Assembly: GCA_015501075.1 (NCBI GenBank)
Contig: JADNYJ010000070.1
Span: 124,001 to 188,000 of the forward strand
Reading direction: 5' to 3'
Length of the DNA stretch: 64,000 bases
From: Gymnopilus junonius
Taxonomy: Eukaryota > Basidiomycota > Agaricomycetes > Agaricales > Galerinaceae
Position numbers and translations under genes: made by a program. This document shows, piece by piece, positions 1-12,011 of this stretch. Within the stretch, counting starts at the first letter, position 1; each line of letters opens with the position of its first letter. The notes beneath the pieces are model-generated. The model saw only the letters and a program-made list of their open reading frames with translations. It was not told the DNA's origin and did no database searches.

Positions 1-1211
1 TGGTCCTTTTCCTCACTTTTGTCGGCCTGGCATCTTCTGCTCCGATCCCGGAACGTCTTTCAACGTGCGTATATCAATATCTGATGCACTGCCCTACCAA
101 AAAATTAAATATTCACGTTTCTGAGGCTCGTTGAACGTTATGACGACTTTAACACCGACTTCTTTGCACGATCTTTGGCTATTCTTGTAGATCGTGACTT
201 TGATGGCGTCGATCCCATACTCTCAAAGGTATGTCGATCATTTTTCTAGTTCCCGAGTATTGCAGATCTGACGTTAGCTACCCCAAATTTAGCGCGATAT
301 TGACTGTCTTTCTATACTGGACGACCGGATTTTGACGCAGCATACGAGGCACTTGTCGAGGTGAGACCTTATCTTTCCATGGATTTCGACCCTAGTAATC
401 GATACGGACCCAGCGCGACTACAACTTCTTCTCTATGATGAACGCGATCTCGACAAGATTGAATATGGATACGGCAGGGTACGTAGTATTCATATTTAAC
501 TCTCTGAGCATCCAAGGGCCTAATCTTAAGTATAGCGCGAGGTCGTTACGCTCAGTCGCCGTAGTATCTGGACGAAGATACGAGACGCCTTCAGGCAGCC
601 TTTCACAAGGTCAAGGAAGGATTCCAGAAATTCGGGCACATTATGAAGAAAGGATTCCAGAAAGTAGGACAAGGGCTCAAGAAATTTGGTGGCATGGTCA
701 AGTCGGGATTCCAGAAAGCAGGACATGCTATCAAATCAGGATTCCAAAAGGCAGGCCACGCTATCACATCCAAAGGCGGCCATGCTATCAAGAAAGGATT
801 CCAGATTGCAGGACATGCTATCAAGAAGGGATTCCAGAAGGTCGGCCAGTTCATCAAGACCACTGGGGCGAAGATTGCCAAGTTCGGTCTCAAGATCGTC
901 GCTGCTGTGGCTTCGGTCGCGGCCAAAGTTATCAAATTCATTCCTGGTATCGGCACGGCTGCTTCGATGGGTCTTAAGGGTCTTGCTATTGGCGCCAGCA
1001 AGGCATCTGACAAGATTCACGCTAACCTTGGTAGCAAATTGGAAAAGGCTACGCATGGCATGGACTACGTGATCAATCCCATGGGTAAGTCGCTCTTGCG
1101 CTCTTTTATGTGGGTGATGTGCTAAGAAGTTCGATTGCAGGATCTGCTGCGAAGAAGATGGGAGCCGGCGGCGTAGTGGCAAATCTGCTTACCAAACGAA
1201 GAACATATTAA
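1..1211 (+). CDS. Secreted protein with amphipathic Lys-rich repeats (3' part of gene)
   Basis: The start lies left of the window. Bases 3-62 encode the end of a signal peptide (VLFLTFVGLASSAPIPERL). Supported exons are about 126-228, an exon ending at 478, 565-1084 and 1141-1211 (stop TAA 1209-1211). The junctions between 229 and 414 could not be resolved in frame. The 565-1084 exon encodes at least six imperfect repeats of the type GFQKAGHAIKK (about nt 613-870), then an Ala/Val/Ile-rich hydrophobic stretch (about 880-1000). The repeats alternate Lys/His with hydrophobic residues and Gly, as in membrane-active amphipathic helices. Upstream exons are rich in Arg-Asp pairs (DERDLDKIEYGYG), which could be a propeptide. 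Function is unknown to me; a membrane-perturbing secreted peptide is inference only. The last intron (1085-1140) is clear: GTAAGT to TTGCAG. Confidence 0.6.
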
Positions 1212-2211
1212 AGGAGGAACGCCATCTCGATTAATCTCCATCTTGTCGCCAGTGTGGCTGGCTTTGAAGGAAAGTCGAACCCAATAACTTTCCATTTGAA
1301 CGAGTTCTTATAAGTATGTGCCATTTCCCATCATTTCTCTTACGTCATCATGTATTTGTCATCATCGTTCATTGATTGCCTCATGGTTCCTTCTCTGGGC
1401 CGTTTTATTTTTATTTTTAACCCTGACCAATTCCTCTCATCTTGAATGCCAGCTTTATTTTACTTTATGACATGAGTCCTATGTATGTTTTATTCTACTG
1501 CCCCCTTCAAACTTCAAAATGTCCCCACAATAATCCTGGGGTCTGCCTGTTTTTTGCATGAGTGCTGTTTGTTCTGGTGTATAAGGTATTTATACATGCC
1601 TAAGCCCTTGTAATGGGGCTGATGCACTATTTAAATGGTGAAAAGTTAGCAAGTATGGTTTTCTTGGAGCCTCTTTGAGTAAAAGGAATTGCAAGAACTT
1701 TGCTGTCATCAATCCAGTGCAATGTCTCATGGCAGTATGCACTTGCAAAGCATAGATGAGGGTCAAAGTCAGTGTCCAGACTGAATCCTCAAATTGTTAT
1801 ATACGTGCCTCTGACCAACTCCGATCTCCGACTATATGAACTCTGACCTCATGATCCCCTCAAAGTACTACAAGTCCCAGAACACATAGACACTTAGATT
1901 ACACGTAGCTAGCCAACTCCAAGTAGTGCAGAATAACTTACACGTCTGTCTGCTCACTAGTACATGTATGGTCTCCACTTAGTTTCCTCCATAGTATAAA
2001 AACCTTAGAACTATTATTAGGTACCTCAGTTCATATATTGTTTGTTAATCAATCCACGCTCTCTACTCCACTCTCTCATTCTGATCTGACTCCAAAATTT
2101 GAGACAACGTCCAGACAATGGAGCACAACACACACATTGAAGCTGAAGTCTCAACCCTATGTCTACACTTAACAGTATATATGAACTCATACCGCTTCTG
2201 GACTTCTGACT
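1212..2211. other. Non-coding stretch, possible 5' LTR/leader remnant of the downstream retroelement
   Basis: No gene seen. The right part has a TATA-like box (tataaaa, 1995-2001) and runs into the gag-like ORF at 2212, so 1650-2200 may be LTR plus leader. I found no matching copy downstream of pol, so the LTR assignment is not proven. Confidence 0.3.
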
Positions 2212-2865
2212 ATGCCCACCACAACATCCCATACTACTGCCAACTCCCATGCAGCTGGACAAAATGAATCCTGCACCATCATGATTCAGAATGTCAGAGA
2301 CTACCCTGACCATCCAAACACACAACCTCCGTCCAGCCTCAGCACTCTGACTCCCTTACCCTCGGGACCCTCATCAATGAGACAAACCAGTCCCAACCCA
2401 TTGCCACCTCCTGCTCCTGGTTCCCCTGGTGGTGAACCTGACCCCGACGATGATGGCGATGATTTTGACCCCCACCACAATGATCACTCTGATCACTCCA
2501 ATCATTCCGATCACAACTCCGACCACAACCCCACTCCAAATCTCACTGAAGCCATGATGCTCATGACCAAAGAGCTCAGGCATTGTGATAGCCCTAAGGT
2601 TACCAAGACCAAAGCCCATGAGCCCAACACCTTCGATGGCTCTGACACCCAGAAACTCAATGGTTTTATTTTACAGTGTAACCTTTACTTCCGAAACAAC
2701 TGCGCCTACACCGCCAATGAAGACAAGGTTACATTCACCCTCTCCTATCTTCACGGCCTTGTGATGGAATTTTTTGAGCCCACAATACTGGACACTGAGC
2801 TAGTGAGTGTCCGAAGTCCACTTCCTCTGCCTCCAAGGCAAAAGCATGTGCTGCCAAAGTTTTGA
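2212..2865 (+). pseudogene. gag-like remnant of the Ty3/Gypsy element
   Basis: The ORF of 217 codons begins with a Ser/Thr/Pro-rich segment and an Asp/His-rich tract (about residues 80-107). A capsid-like segment follows (PNTFDGSDTQKLNGFILQC, about nt 2617-2680), typical of the gag of fungal Gypsy elements. The frame is lost near 2800, and no CCHC zinc knuckle is readable between 2865 and the protease at about 3050. Part of gag is therefore deleted or scrambled. Confidence 0.7.
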
Positions 2866-3048
2866 ATCCCAGCACTGAGGATTCAAAAAAATAGTCAGCA
2901 GTCCTCATCCCTTCGCACACACTGGGGGTCACGTTGACACTGGCTGTGTGCATATGAAGGAAGTAAGGCTCAATGTGTCTGCTCTTTCTGACCCTGACTC
3001 TCTCTGACTCTCATTAACATCTCTGTTCTGACCTGACCTTAAGTCACT

Positions 3049-6000
3049 AACGTTAATTGACTCTGGCTCTAGCCATTGTTTTGTTGATACCCATTTTATC
3101 TGTTCTAATAATTTACTCCCTTCTCTGATCAATCCGGTTAAGCTCAAACTGATTGATGGCTCCTATGGCAACATGATTACTAAAACCCTCTCCATTCTGA
3201 TTACATTTCCCTCTGGTGAAACTATTACCATTGACTTTTTCGTAACCTCACTGGACTCCTCCTGTGTTCTGGTTCTAGGATATAACTGGCTCTTCTGCTA
3301 CAATCCATTGATTGACTGGAAATTGGGCCATAGGCCAGCTCTGCTGCCTACACCTCCATTATTGGAACCTCTGACCCCTCCGCTTCCTCCGCCAACTCCT
3401 ATGGTTACACCTCTGACACCTCTGACCTCTGTAGCATCTTCTGATGCACCTCACATCTCGCTAATCAATGCAGCTGCTTTCACAAGAGCATGCAAGTTAC
3501 CTGGTGCTCAAAGTTTCACAGTTCACCTCTCTGATCCTGCCATCTCTGCTCATGCCGCTTCCATCTCCGATGAAGCACCTGATCTGTCTAGTATTCCTCC
3601 TGAATACCATGACTTTGCAGATGTCTTCAGTAAATCTAAAGCTGACATGCTCGCACCCCATCGACCTTACAACCTCAAGATCAATCTCGAACCCAGCACT
3701 TCCCCTCCTGTTGGAAATATGTACTCCCTTTCACAATCCAAACTTCAATCCCTCTGAGAATTTATCGACGAGCACCTCCAAATCAGTTTCATTTGACCTT
3801 CAACCTTTCCACATGGTGCTCCGATCCTTTTCATTCACAAAAAGGATGGATCACTATGACTTTGCATCAACTTTAGAGGATTAAACAAGATCATGAAGAA
3901 AGACCGATATCCACTTCCGCTCATCTCTGACCTCCTGTCCACTGCTGGTAAAGCACACATCTATACAGCTGTCGACCTCTGACATGCCTATCACCTAGTC
4001 CACATAGTGGAAGGCGAAGAATGGAAAACAGCATTCTGAACATGCTATGGATCGTTTGAATGGAACATTATGCCATTTGGACTGTCCAATGCACCTGCCG
4101 TTTTTCAATGCTTCATGAATGACATACTAAGTGATTTATTAGATGTGTCTGTCATCATTTACCTCAACGACATCCTGATCTACTCCAATGATCCTACCCA
4201 GCATAAGAAACACATTCACGAAGTCCTCCGATGTCTCCAACAACATGGTCTGTATGCCCGCTCTGACAAATGCAATTTCTCTATGAACACGGTTAATTAC
4301 CTTGGATTCATTCTTTCACCAGAAGGCCTCAAGATGGATGAAAGCAAGATCAAGACTATCCAAGATTGGCCTGAACCCAAGAAGATTAAGGATGTTCAAT
4401 CCTTCTTAGGTTTTGCAAACTTCTACCGATGATTTATCTCCAACTACTCTGACATCATTGTTCCGCTCACCTGACTCACTAGGAAAGGAACCCCTTGGCA
4501 ATTCAACAATGCTGCTCGAAAAGCCTTCAACAAGCTCAAAAAAGCATTTACAACTGCTCCGATACTTACTCACTGGGTTCCCGACCATCCAATTATTGTG
4601 GAAACTGATGCTTCCGACTACGCGCTTGGAGTGATCCTCTCCATCTGCACCTCTGGTGATGAGATTCACCCTGTTGCGTTTCACTCACAAACCTTCACAG
4701 GTCCTGAAATCAACTATGACACCCATGACAAAGAACTACTAGCAATCTTCAACACATTTAAAGTATGGCGACATTATCTGGAAGGCTCCACTGCTCCGAT
4801 CAACATCGTCACCAACCACAATATTTCACAACTACCAAAGTTCTTACTCGCTGACAAGCCCACTGGTCTGAATATCTCTGCCAATTCAACCTCATCATCT
4901 GCTTCTGCCCTGGACATCTCAGTATGAAACCTGACTCTTTAACTAGATGATGGGATGTCTATCCCAAAGGGGGAAATAGTGACTATGCAAGCATTAACCC
5001 AAGCAACTTCTGACCTATTTTCACCCAAGAACAACTCTCCACATCCCTCCGTGCCACTCAACTCTTTGAACCCACCCTCCGTGCAGTATCCCTCATGGAC
5101 TCCAACCTACTCCGACATGACATCCTCACTGTACTACCCTCTGACCTGGTCTACCTTGCTCACATGAAGGAACCAAAACCACACTGGTCCCTTGATCCAG
5201 ATGGTTACCTCCATCATGAATCACACATCTATGTTTCTGATGCATCTGACCTCCAACTCCACATCCTCCAACACAAGCATGATCATATCCTCGCTGGACA
5301 CCCTGGACAAAATAAGACAACTAGTCTTATCCTTCATGAATACACCTGGCCTGGACTACAAGACTTCATGAAGAAGTATTGCAAATCATGTATGACATGT
5401 ATGCATTCCAAACCTCAATGACACAAACCCTACAGATTGCTCAAACAGCTCCTGATCCCCGAACGTCCCTGGAATTCAATATCAATGGACTTTATCGAAA
5501 TCCTTCTGATGTCTGATGGACATGATGTGATCCTAGTCATTGTTGACTGACTTACCAAGCAAGCTATATTCATTCCAACCACCTCTGCTTGCACCTCCGA
5601 AGACCTTGCTATGCTTTTCATCATTCATGTGTTCTCCAAGCATGGCATCCCTGAACATGTCACCTCCGACCATGGACCTGAATTCATCTCCTGCTTCTTC
5701 TGATCCTTAGGAAAAGCACTCAACATGAAACTCCATTTTACTTCCAGATACCATCCTGAAGGTGATGGCCAGACTGAACACACTAATCAGACACTAGAGC
5801 AATACCTCTGAATTTATTGCAACTATCAGCAAGACAATTGGTCAAGTCTATTACCTCTTGCAGAGTTTGCTTACAACAATGCTCCTAGTGCTACTACTGG
5901 CATTTCACCATTCTTCGCTAATAAAGGTTACCACCCTAACATGGCTATCCACCCTGAATGCGACCTCACCTCTGCTTGCACTCACGATTTTGTTGTTGAT

Positions 6001-6567
6001 CTAGACGAATTACACAAAGAACTCAAGAACGCTATCGCTGAATCACAAAAGTGTTATCAAGTCTCTGCTGACCTCTGATGCACTCTGCCCCCCGACTTCC
6101 AAGTCAGACAGCAAGCATTTGTCAAAGCAAAGTTCTTCTGCACCACATGTCCCTCCAAGAAACTCTCCAAAAAATATTATGGTCCTTTTGATATCATCGC
6201 CAAAGCCGGCACACACTCTTTTACTTTATGACTTCCTGACTCCATGCATGGTGTTCACCCCATTTACCACATTTCTATGCTGGAACCATTTACTCTGAAT
6301 GATATTCTGAATTGGACTCAATCTCCGCCTCCACCTGTTGAAGTCAAAGGCAAAATCGAATATGAAATTGCTGAAGTCCTCAACTCCAAGCTTGATCAAT
6401 GACGCAAGTGCAAGCTATTGTACTTGGTTTGCTGGTTAGGTTATGAAAGCACTGATGAAGAACAATCCTGGCTCCCAGCTACTGAACTCGAACACACACC
6501 TGACCTCATCTCTGACTTTCACTCCACTTACCCTGACAAACCCGGACCTCTTTCATCTCTCACTTAG
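3049..6567 (+). pseudogene. pol polyprotein remnant (protease, RT, RNase H, integrase, chromodomain)
   Basis: The protease motif DSGSSHCFVD lies at about 3058-3090. RT covers about 3570-4440, with MPFGLSNAPAVFQ at 4070-4108. The catalytic box reads YLNDILIYS (about 4159-4185), where YLDD is expected. RNase H has ETDASDYALG (about 4600-4630). The integrase has an HHCC finger (about 5275-5400) and DDE-region motifs SMDF (about 5485), TSDHGPEF (about 5663-5690) and DGQTE (about 5764-5778). The chromodomain runs from about 6340 to 6540 and pol ends at TAG 6565-6567. At least eight in-frame TGA codons fall where relatives have Arg, for example near 3979, 4039, 4432, 4470, 5420, 5548, 5701 and 5811. 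There is also a frame change near 3750. The protein cannot be made. Confidence 0.85.
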
Positions 6568-7264: not shown

Positions 7265-8948
7265 ACCAGTACATTGAATATGAATCCCATACTGTTGCTA
7301 TGAAGGTCATTGATTATAGACAACCAGATGCTGAACTGACATGGAAAATGTGGACTATAGGCATGGATACATCCATCAATCACACTAGCGAGACTCAAAT
7401 AAGTGGTCTAAAAAAGTGACTCACAGAGATTTTGGAGGTCTTCAACAACAGCCCACTAGCCAAACGGGAAGGCCTCAAATTTAATCCAGATGACTTTGCC
7501 TTCAAATTGATAGGGACCAGCAGAGATCATGTGGCTGACCAGATCAAAAGCCATAAACTCCTATGAGAATGGAAGATCAGGACAGTATACCAATGGCTTG
7601 GTGAAGAGGCGCTCTTTAACCTTGGACCCACACAGGTAGTAGTATATCTCTTGCCTATAAAGAAGCAGCAAGTCAAGGAGATGGGCAGCCTAGACAAATG
7701 GGAGAGCCTAAGTGAGGAAGAGAAAACAAAGGCCAATATGAAAATTATACATGAGGTTGGTCAGCAGGTCTTTGAAGCACTGCCAGAAGATGAGCAGAGC
7801 TGGTTCATGCGCTTTGTTCGAACAGGCTGCTGTATGCACAAGGATTTGAATACTGTCAAAGGTGGAGATAAGGCAATGCAGAACATGTGGAAAAAGAAAG
7901 GAAAAACACCACCCATCCTACTTGTGAACAAGGACAATGCAGCAGTCCTCGAATGCAAGGCCAATGAAGTGAACCCATCTCCTGCAGAAATTCAAGCTGC
8001 CGAGGTTTCCAAATGTGGAGGAAGCCATGCTATGATGCTAGAAGGTTTAATATGTCGAAGTAAGGACAAAAAGAAGGGACAACAAGACACATACAACTGG
8101 TTTATGGAAGAGCAAATTGGCCAATGGATTCGATATCCAGATGTCAGCAACATGCATTATGGCTCACATGGTGAGGCTGCAGCCACCATCATCATTTACC
8201 ACTCCCATTTCATCCATTTCATGGACATGGTTCACTTGGGCAAGGATAAACCTGCATTAATGAATATCGAGAAGAATTTTCTGAATTCAATCAAGGACAT
8301 ACCTACCTTGACCAAACTTTGCATTCTGGCCATACCCATGAGAACCTACTCAAACTCGGGCCTTTCTTCAAAAAGAAGTGTGAATTTCTCGAAGCTGTCA
8401 GTGACAATCCAACATGATGGACCAAAAATGATGCTTCACATACCTTGGCATCTTTAAATGGATGCAAATGGGATGACTGGGCTACACTCGTCATGAACGT
8501 GGTTCACACTCTGGCACCAGCTCTCCCTGATCTTGATGAAGTGGTGTCCGCTTTTGCTAGAGGCACTCTGGAAACATTCTCACAGAGGTTTTCTGATGAA
8601 TTCCTCGAGGGAGGTGACATTGCTAAGATGTCCGATGTGGAAAGAAATGAACTTTTCTTTGTGGCAACAAATGACATCAATGGGGGAGCCCTAGGAAGCT
8701 GGAGATTGGGTCAATGAATGAAACCAAGCGAGACTATCCACAAGTTCGACGCACACTTTATGACACATCAAAATGATACAGAGGAGTTTCACAGGCTGAT
8801 ACTCAATGCAGAGGAGGATGAGGCATATTTATGAAAAGTCGCAAGGCAGAGAGATGAACAGAAGCTTCAAAAGCAGGTAAAGGAAGCCCAGATGAAAGCT
8901 GATGCAGAGAAAGCAGCAGAGGACTGCGAGAAGGAGGTTGTGAGAAAG

Positions 8949-8956
8949 GAGAAGCA
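8949..8956. repeat. Left target-site duplication (gagaagca)
   Basis: This 8-bp repeat is identical to 11463-11470 and directly abuts the 12-bp inverted repeat of the nested transposon. Confidence 0.8.
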
Positions 8957-11462
8957 CAAGGGGTATGTAAAAAAAAATCCCACTACACAACCTTGGTTTA
9001 CACATTTAAGGCCCCTCCGTGGCCTCCCTCCCTCTTGTACCTGCTAAATATAGAAATATATTCCCACACTTTGACCGGCCCGAATTATTATACCTTCCGT
9101 CGCTTCTTCTGCTTCGCTGCTACTCTAAATCCTGCATTTTTCCTGCAATCGTCATTGCAAAACCAAGCTGTCTTTGGTTTCTCGAAAAGGCCTCAACATG
9201 TAAGATGATACTAAAGCAATAAAATTAATTTCTTCATTGTTGTATACTGAAAAGAAAGGTAAAACTTACCATGAATTTGCATCCAGGACCAAGGCATCGC
9301 ACAAGATCGACGTCCTCAATGGGTATCCCACAGCCAGGGTCATTACACACCACAGAGCCATCATCAATGCCACCCGAGTTGAAGCTCGTAACCTGAGGTC
9401 GCTGACGCTTTTGACCAAAAGAAGTTGGCGGAAGTTCATCAGGTGTCGAATTTGGTTCTGAGAAACAGTGTCAGTAATAAATCAGCAAATTAACAAAAGT
9501 CTTGCTCACCAACTTCGTTCCCAACTTCTCCTTCATCCCCGTCTTCTTCAGGCTCTTCCTCTTCCTCTTCCTCTTCAGATACAGCATCGGAATTACTATG
9601 GTTATCACTTTCTCCAGCATTCTCGTTAACATTCTGCTCCTCATCCACACCATCTGAAGCTCTGTGAAAGGAAAGATCAGAGAGATATACAATATGAGAT
9701 GAGAAGAACATTACGTGAAAGCAAAGCATGAACTATGATTTGCAGAAATGGCCAATGCTTTAATTTGCTTCGATTTTTTTGAACGTTGAGGGGTTAGATA
9801 AATTTTCTTCATTGCAATGACCTCCTTTGCATCCAATGCATAATGAGACTCATAGAGAGTTTTGTCAGCTGTTGGATGAGTATCAATGATATGATGTATG
9901 AGGTTATACTTCCAGACAAAAGTTGAGCAAAGAGGGCATTTGAGCGGGTGGTTGGTGCATGATTGATGCGCCGTGAATGTCTGGGCAGCCTTGAGTCAAA
10001 TTTGGCGATGATTAGGGCACATTGACTTTTGTAAATCAACTGTGATTGACTGGCCATGCCAAATAAGATAGATTTCGCAGTGCGAGTTGAGACAAAAGCC
10101 ACAAGGATTGGCTCTTCCCTGCAACCGGTGATCATGCAAGATGTGACCACCCATGTGTCTCAGAAGCTCAGGTCTGGTGAATCCTTCAGTCTTGAGTTGG
10201 GGGCAAAGGCTACATGTCGGGGATACATCTTCACTGTGACAGGATCCTTCCACTGCATCAGACTCACAGGTGAAACATGCCTCCCCTAGAAAGCCGGTAG
10301 ATCAGAAGCGTGAAATGACTATGACTGTAATATTTAATTTCTGTACCTATTGAAGATCGATAAGGAAATGAATCGCTTAGCACAACCAAAGAAAGTCGGT
10401 CAATTTCACCAGCAATGCACTCATGGAGAACAGCAGAGACAACACGAAGATCCGAGCTCTTGAAAACATATGTGTCTTCTCCAACATTTCATCCACGAGA
10501 TGCAGTCCATGATGAACAACTTTCGAGATCTCCTCAGTGGACATTCCAAAACCAATGACTCGGTTGAGAGCTTGATCAACCATTTCCCATGCGTCATCCC
10601 CAGGATCGAATGCTGGATTTCCTGAGAACTGGGCTAGGACATCAGACAATTCTCCTTCAGGTATGGAAGGTGGCAGCGAAGCAGTAACCAGTTCGAGTTG
10701 GCATAAGAGAGATGTAGAGGAGGGGTGAGAAGAATCCAAATAAAAGATTGTCGAAGAGTTGTGTTGAGGAAACGGCAGTGTGTCAGGTATAACGATAGCA
10801 TCTGGGATGCTGGGAGGAGGCATTGAGGGTGGTTCGACATGAGAGGGAGATAAGACGGGCGTGGAAGTAGAGCTTGACGTTGTCACTGCCGAGGACTTAT
10901 GGACAGCCTTCTGGAAGAATGCCGTAATACCCTTGTTGTCGCGTACATTGTTCGCAGCCTCTTCTTTTTCTTTGTGTGCAGTACTTGCTGTGTGAATATT
11001 CCAGTTGCCCTCGCCACCACAGCGATTTTGATGTTGACTTTGCAGACATTGCAGTAGCGCGTACTCGACGCCGTGAACTCAGCGGGTTGCTATTAATATG
11101 AAGTCAGCATTAGAATCATCGCGAGAATGTCGAAGTGTCCAAAACGTACCTTTTTCGAAGCTCGTGGCATGGCCAGTGTGTTCGGTCAGGGAGGAAACGC
11201 TGCGTATGGAAATTTTTGCGACGGTGTGGCTATGTCTATGATGTCATGTCTTGCCGGAAGCCTTGGAAGGTGGTCCCATGCCCTTTCTTAAGATCAAACG
11301 GACCATTTCTTGCATACGGAGACTGTTCGCAGCCCTCACGGCCACCAAAATCATATGAAATATACTTATCTATAAGTCAAATAAGTTTCGCGTTTAAGGT
11401 CGCTCAACCCACACCCTCCCTCCCAAGGTCGTGTTGCTCGGCAAATGCTGACATACCCCTTG
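8957..11462. mobile_element. hAT-like DNA transposon carrying a zinc-finger gene, nested in another ORF
   Basis: The ends are perfect 12-bp terminal inverted repeats, caaggggtatgt at 8957-8968 and its reverse complement at 11451-11462. Both sides are flanked by the identical 8-bp direct repeat gagaagca (8949-8956 and 11463-11470). Removing the element and one repeat copy restores the reading frame of the host ORF exactly, which is strong evidence for a real insertion. An 8-bp duplication and a CAAGG start fit hAT-type elements, though KDZ elements also make 8-bp duplications. No transposase catalytic or dimerisation domain is visible; the only gene inside is the antisense zinc-finger gene. 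The element is 2,506 bp long. Confidence 0.8.
9088..11170 (-). pseudogene. Multi-zinc-finger protein gene carried by the nested transposon
   Basis: Exon 1 encodes only MPRASKK (start 11168-11170). A 58-bp-class intron leads to an N-terminal BED-like finger, YCNVCKVNIK then NWNIHTASTAHKEKE. A Ser/Pro/Thr-rich linker (about 10886-10600) follows, then a Cys/His-rich block (CSLCPQLKTEGFTRPELLRH, GRANPCGFCLNSHCEI, about 10230-10070). A second block has CPLCSTF with HHIIDTH, then an acidic Glu tract. The C-terminal finger contains CNDPGCGIPIEDVDLVRC and ends WFCNDDCRKNAGFRV before the stop at 9088-9090. I recognise the architecture as a repeated agaricomycete family of unknown function. Two lesions exist: a 1-nt loss in an A run near 11024-11029, and an in-frame TGA near 10005 where Arg is expected. 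The BED-like finger recalls those of hAT transposases, but no transposase core follows. Confidence 0.65.
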
Positions 11463-11470
11463 GAGAAGCA
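11463..11470. repeat. Right target-site duplication (gagaagca)
   Basis: This is the second copy of the 8-bp duplication. The host reading frame continues through it as HEKKVAAITE. Confidence 0.8.
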
Positions 11471-12011
11471 TGAAAAGAAGGTGGCAGCCATCACTGAGAC
11501 CGGAAAGCACCTAATTTTCGACATTGCCATTATTGACAAGGTGAATGTTGACATGCTTAATCGACAGCTTGATTGGCATCATCAAAATGAGAAGAAAGTC
11601 TCAGAGCTGTCAGAGCGTGTTCCCCTGAAATCTCATACTGTATGACCAACCAGTCAGATCATAGAGCCGAGCTCAAGAAAGCCATAGAATGATACCAGAC
11701 GATGCAGGGACTCAATATTATGGCAGAGGTTTTGTCTGAGGATCAGGAGGATGTTGAAATGGGAGATGGAGAAGGTGATGACACTATGTATATTTCAGAT
11801 TATGAAGATGACACGATTTAATTATTTTAAAACTTATATTTACACTGCTAATACCTTCTGTAATTTACTTAATACTATTCTCATAATATTCAAACTCTCA
11901 AATATCGCTGCAGAGGCCGAGAACATCTGTATTACCGCGACGAGCAACGCGAAGTACGAATTGGACAGGTTTTTTGTGGCTGTGCGCTTAGTCATCGGGT
12001 CGGAAGGTTCT

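Follow-up and report, generated by a model that had tools for sequence, protein, structure and literature searches.

A probable internally deleted P-superfamily transposon in Gymnopilus junonius and the finger-rich transposase of its relatives

An insertion with exact ends in a repeated reading frame

The window (the whole stretch analysed, 64,000 nucleotides) is part of contig C668 of the 58-Mb Gymnopilus junonius assembly. It contains a DNA transposon of 2,506 bp (8957–11462) inserted within another open reading frame (ORF). The features of the locus are as follows.

8949–8956, no strand: left target-site duplication (TSD) GAGAAGCA, an exact match to 11463–11470
8957–8968, plus strand: left terminal inverted repeat (TIR) CAAGGGGTATGT, 12 bp, perfect and exact
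8957–11462, minus strand: very probable non-autonomous P-type DNA transposon with a remnant transposase gene, 94–96% identical to the C667 and C112 copies
9140–9347, minus strand: C-terminal PHD-type finger (CNDPGC ... WFCNDDC), read from the sequence, with a putative intron split
9714–10285, minus strand: Cys/His blocks and C2H2 finger (LKCPLC..H..H) of the C-terminal part of the transposase, with a stop at 9996–9998
10347–10505, minus strand: remnant of the exon 3' of the core, in a frame differing from that of the upstream exon, with a stop at 10489–10491
10505–10506, no strand: internal-deletion junction, at which ~3.24 kb including the catalytic core is present in C667 and C112
10506–11089, minus strand: remnant of the N-terminal exon with a BED-like C2H2 finger (~11056–10970), by comparison with loci L021 and L062
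11150–11170, minus strand: predicted first exon (ATG), with a 60-bp intron after it that reaches 11090, a prediction from an L062-like splice pattern
11451–11462, minus strand: right TIR, the exact reverse complement of the left CAAGGGGTATGT
11463–11470, no strand: right TSD GAGAAGCA, an exact match to 8949–8956

The preliminary description of this DNA had read the 12-bp inverted ends and the 8-bp duplication as the limits of a mobile element whose excision restores the host frame. Both parts of that reading held: ends and duplication are exact and recur in the genome (see below), and the flanks joined with a single TSD copy leave an open frame across the site (frame 2), which is spanned without insertion by relatives of the host ORF in C144 (75% identity) and in C235 and C472 (93%).

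The interrupted host ORF (7567–8956 and 11471–11645) is itself repeated in the genome, with 72–75% identity in C144 and 93–97% over part of its length in C235 and C472. In the Pfam scan nothing matched it at better than E 0.1, and stops interrupt it in other places. Since it is repeated, stop-broken and without a Pfam match, it is probably another mobile or decayed gene. Elsewhere in the window, an ORF at 5812–6078 resembles by eye a fragment of a Ty3/gypsy-type integrase, for which the Pfam scan gave no match.

Copies of the element across the genome

The end 12-mer CAAGGGGTATGT was found at 41 exact sites (22 + 19) in the 58-Mb genome, many of them forming inward-facing pairs, against 5 sites (2 + 3) for a control consisting of the same pattern read backwards; the ends are not a product of chance. 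A variant end, CAAGGGGTATGC, was found at 20 sites against 1 for its control. Identical 8-bp flanks border 12 of the 17 copies in which both flanks were read, so that the paired ends with 8-bp duplications that the preliminary description had proposed to search for, and whose absence elsewhere it had named as a refutation, are a recurring arrangement. At least seven positions agree in 14 of the 17. When flanks were paired in mismatched combinations as a control, only 2 of 272 agreed, both from contigs that share flanks (C214/C867 and C112/C667). The duplication length was examined in 16 pairs: 8 bases were identical in 11 of them, 9 or 10 bases in none. The exceptions differ by one base (C85, C235) or are shifted by one base (C867, C24), and the C667 copy has two different flanks with no matching duplication. 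Six TIR pairs (C35, C119, C235:201961, C278, C481, C564) stand outside the TSD count. The 8-bp TSDs, TIRs and internally deleted copies by which the P superfamily is recognised are all present in this family.

Copy lengths range from ~240 bp to 5.9 kb, and reach 13.2 kb when a nested insertion is included. Seven MITE-like short copies of 828–839 bp (C113, C149, C190, C235, C259, C286, C329) are 70–75% identical to the end regions of the window element, and further MITE-like copies with the same kind of ends measure ~240 bp (C119, C235, C481, C564) or ~780 bp (C35, C278). In two cases, L016 (C214, positions 883–5141) and L022 (C867, positions 887–5682), a MULE-like transposase is nested in a short family copy, as judged from a FAR1 match (E 0.0012) and a weak SWIM match in L022 and from 94–99% identical pieces in L016. 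Flanking sequence is common to C214 and C867, so these two may be alleles. As the enzyme of the family, the MULE-like transposase was rejected, as only C214 and C867 hold it among the nine loci and the window element searched.

The longest copies reveal what the window copy lacks. In C667 (5,751 bp) and C112 (13.2 kb) the whole window element could be aligned, with 3,237 extra bases in C667 and 3,245 in C112 at window position 10505/10506; the extra ~3.24 kb codes for a large transposase's core. The longest copy, in C112, also carries a 7.4-kb insertion (C112:1346167–1353605, L010/L011) with a 6-bp overlap at its junctions. The two long copies, C667 (L021) and C112 (L010/L011), have the right flank AATACTTG in common and different left flanks, which points either to a rearrangement or to a join made in assembly. 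C106 has a related copy (5,880 bp, TSD GATATTGC) in which splicing can connect the BED-like finger to the core, and the core to the Cys/His blocks and the C2H2 finger, except for a single frameshift close to where the core exon ends. Another deletion derivative, in C131 (4,131 bp, TSD GCACCACC), has lost the 5' part of the gene.

The preliminary description had reported a single gene inside the element, antisense to the host ORF, encoding a protein with a BED-like N-terminal finger, Cys/His blocks and a C-terminal finger. The antisense orientation and the fingers were borne out; an intact gene was not, as the frames differ and are interrupted by the stops at 9996–9998 and 10489–10491, and within the BED-like finger itself the frame is shifted. 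The window "zinc-finger gene" is a relic of the two ends of a transposase gene, with the core deleted and the frame broken. Decay is visible in the copies: taking the window copy as reference, the C667 copy differs at 108 bases (71 C-to-T or G-to-A; 58 at CpG), and the CpG observed/expected ratios are 0.37 (C667 copy), 0.68 (window copy) and 0.82 (whole window).

Some internally deleted Drosophila P elements repress their autonomous relatives. By analogy, the window copy might make a truncated finger protein that binds the transposon ends and represses longer copies, and it does keep a candidate end-binding finger region together with both ends. However, its finger exons are mutually out of frame and contain stops, and no other genome match to the window element spans the deletion junction, from which it follows that the window form has not spread. 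We therefore regard a repressor role as very unlikely.

Affiliation of the deleted catalytic core

A protein search in which 7,990 candidates were scored yielded 94 relatives; those with a named organism come from Agaricomycetes and are entered as hypothetical proteins or under "PHD-type zinc finger". The commonest Pfam match among the relatives was PF21787 (TNP-like_RNaseH_N), most relatives having no strong model. We take PF21787 and PF21789 to be models of P-element-like transposases, the Pfam name itself saying only "TNP-like". PF21787 matched 13 of 33 relatives (best E 1.2e-3), five of six trimmed cores (best E 1.5e-4), six of eight further relatives and, in another scan, one of eight. 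The Russula protein P0107 exceeds the curated cut-off of this model (25.8 against 24.6 bits, E 1.4e-5) and is the sole singly scanned protein to do so. The matched stretch contains the first conserved aspartate, and PF21789 gave weak matches in relatives (E 0.14–0.17) at the conserved glutamate motif. In Gymnopilus, the exons of L021 and L062 had no PF21787 match. A scan of the whole genome with PF21787, up to E 10, brought just two matches (E 0.03 and 0.2, both below the cut-off), each upstream of a family core (in C138 and C24). PF21789 had no match in the genome, and no Gymnopilus copy passes the cut-off of either model. A P-type RNase H domain can accordingly be recognised by sequence for the family, not for Gymnopilus alone.

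Among 70 aligned relatives, 51 have letters at all four catalytic columns, and D, D, D, E is found in 47 of these; the D-D-D(2)H-E pattern is kept. The median spacings between the four residues are 118, 48 and 176, compared with 73, 36 and 192 in the Drosophila P element in passages of PMC8230255, the first interval thus being the longer one in the mushroom proteins. Sequence and profile searches of the PDB returned no P-element transposase chain and no transposase, the whole-family profile matching mainly PHD fingers; the link to the P element therefore rests on Pfam and on the predicted fold.

An AlphaFold2 model was obtained for P0045 from Heliocybe sulcata (935 aa, 70-row alignment, core without the finger ends), with mean pLDDT 85.3 and pTM 0.76. 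In this model D284 is part of a strand, D408 and D456 immediately follow strands and E634 belongs to a helix, and a helical insertion (residues ~457–630) separates D456 from E634. The same D/D/D/E order is described for the P element and THAP9 in passages of PMC8230255, and the predicted insertion appears to be placed like the GTP-binding insertion domain of the Drosophila transposase. The two top Foldseek matches in the PDB were both P-element transposase (6p5a, E 3.3e-10; 6pe2, E 4.2e-10; probability 1.00), with TM by target of 0.60 and 0.57, 15% identity and rmsd 7.7–8.2. RAG1 came next (E 1.9e-3), far weaker than the P element, and was followed by the hAT transposase Hermes (E 1.2e-2, probability 0.57). 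The Heliocybe model thus combines the P-superfamily fold with the D, D, D(2)H, E order and an insertion before E, and as modelled the transposase core resembles that of the P element, not that of hAT transposases.

These comparisons bear on the affiliation first proposed, an hAT-like element that had picked up a multi-zinc-finger gene of the host and distributed it as cargo. Eight-bp TSDs and short ends starting with CA fit hAT elements too, and hAT transposases often carry BED-like fingers; the mushroom element shares both the duplication length and the finger with them. hAT elements are also abundant in this genome (134 matches to the dimer domain PF05699). All 134, however, lie outside the 23 TIR-bounded intervals and more than 6 kb from each of nine further cores, and no hAT domain appeared among the Pfam matches of the scanned family members (with 25 of 31 families listed in one scan). 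With the dimer domain missing and the Hermes match so much weaker than that of the P element, the hAT assignment was abandoned; together with the evidence below that the fingers belong to the transposase itself, this leaves the cargo reading extremely improbable.

A KDZ (Zisupton/Kyakuja/Dileera) element was considered as well: passages of PMC12730594 and PMC7641404 place KDZ elements in mushrooms, give 8-bp TSDs for Zisupton and describe cysteine-cluster regions that accompany KDZ transposases. Against it, the 79 genome matches to the KDZ domain PF18758 (E ≤0.001) all fall outside the 23 intervals and more than 6 kb from the nine further cores, and no KDZ domain is among the listed Pfam matches of the family, so that this reading can practically be dismissed.

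Fingers of the transposase and the proposed lineage

The fingers and the core were found to be linked. Among the matches listed, the C2H2 module was present on at least 12 contigs, at least nine of which also hold the core, at a distance of 1.1–1.3 kb in every case. The remainder comprises the window copy, whose core is deleted, and two weak matches, in C429 and C357. Conversely, with the window's own sequence as query, at least 14 contigs hold the core and nine of them had a C2H2 match, those lacking one among the matches listed being the more distant cores (C209, C801, C56, C10, C301). The 400-aa core is matched by all 94 protein relatives; 55 of them also match the Cys/His piece, 51 match the C2H2 piece, and the N-terminal finger is matched by 27. 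Of the 37 relatives that reach at least 1,400 aa, all but one (36) have a Cys/His or C2H2 module, and 21 have an N-terminal finger. A search restricted by design to short proteins (~117–371 aa) gave eight matches to the C-terminal module, one of them a partial Mycena gene model, and six of the other seven sit on contigs of 3.3 kb or less. The PHD tail of the window copy recurs in the NCBI gene models P0002 and P0013, in one chain with the core. Because core and fingers are linked, at a constant spacing, the idea of captured zinc-finger cargo was rejected; its stated alternative, an uncharacterised component of the element, proved the better guess, the fingers being the two ends of the element's own transposase.

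We conclude that the window element is, with high probability, an internally deleted, non-autonomous cut-and-paste transposon of the P superfamily in Agaricomycetes, from a finger-rich, THAP-less lineage outside the THAP-bearing clade. Its full-length form would be ~5.8 kb long and would encode a single, intron-containing transposase, predicted to consist of a BED-like finger, an RNase H-type domain (D, D, D(2)H, E, interrupted by a helical insertion), Cys/His blocks, a C2H2 finger and a PHD finger, in that order. The BED-like N-terminal finger would bind the transposon ends, and the enzyme would cut and paste the element, inserting it with the 8-bp stagger that the duplications show. Deletions would arise from incomplete repair after excision, and short copies would move using enzyme from longer ones. 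In the window copy an internal deletion has removed the catalytic core, and the finger regions that remain on its two sides no longer share a frame; in its present form this copy would be mobile only with the transposase of another copy, and the deletion may instead postdate the insertion.

Compared with the Drosophila P element, the mushroom element is alike in the predicted fold of its catalytic domain and, as far as passages of PMC8230255 and PMC7776569 describe the fly element, in the D-D-D(2)H-E order with an insertion before E, in the 8-bp TSD and in the occurrence of full-length beside internally deleted copies. It differs in its perfect 12-bp ends (31 bp in Drosophila), in its length (~5.8 kb against 2.9 kb) and in a transposase that has a BED-like finger in front in place of THAP and is extended far at its C terminus, where the Cys/His, C2H2 and PHD fingers lie. 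THAP had no match among the listed Pfam matches, which included weak BED- or zf-met-like matches instead. In its available passages, a 2011 account of P elements in rust fungi (P-1_PSt, P-1_MLP and others in Repbase) describes the superfamily as previously unknown in any Dikarya (PMC3164196). Those elements are likewise Basidiomycota members of the P superfamily with 8-bp TSDs and with autonomous and non-autonomous forms (PMC3164196, same passages); they belong to another subphylum and are likened here by description.

The family profile matched ING-type PHD fingers (E 1e-9) over an aligned stretch that includes an adjoining low-complexity region. Nine of the 94 proteins fit a strict PHD pattern, and two of these nine have a tryptophan two residues before the histidine, a position that we take to be part of the methyl-lysine cage; with the cage tryptophan in only two of nine, H3K4me3 reading is not assumed. 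In the RAG recombinase the PHD finger belongs to RAG2, whereas in the mushroom protein it lies in the same chain as the catalytic core. A bolder reading would see in these proteins a widespread, unrecognised P lineage of Agaricomycetes in which a P-type core and an ING-like PHD finger, joined in one protein, cut DNA and read histone tails to choose insertion sites, a single-chain counterpart of RAG1 plus the RAG2 PHD finger. We put this forward as speculation, more probably wrong than right. A literature search by titles and passages, with Repbase and most subscription papers outside its range, returned no report of the P superfamily from Agaricomycetes.

The very probable P-superfamily assignment would give an identity to mushroom proteins listed as hypothetical or "zinc finger PHD-type" and would extend P-type transposons from rusts to Agaricomycetes. 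It would also mean that P-type catalysis can be combined with other DNA-binding and possibly chromatin-binding modules that replace THAP. For annotation, it advises caution: a zinc-finger "gene" in a mushroom genome can consist of the two terminal parts of a transposase that has lost its middle.
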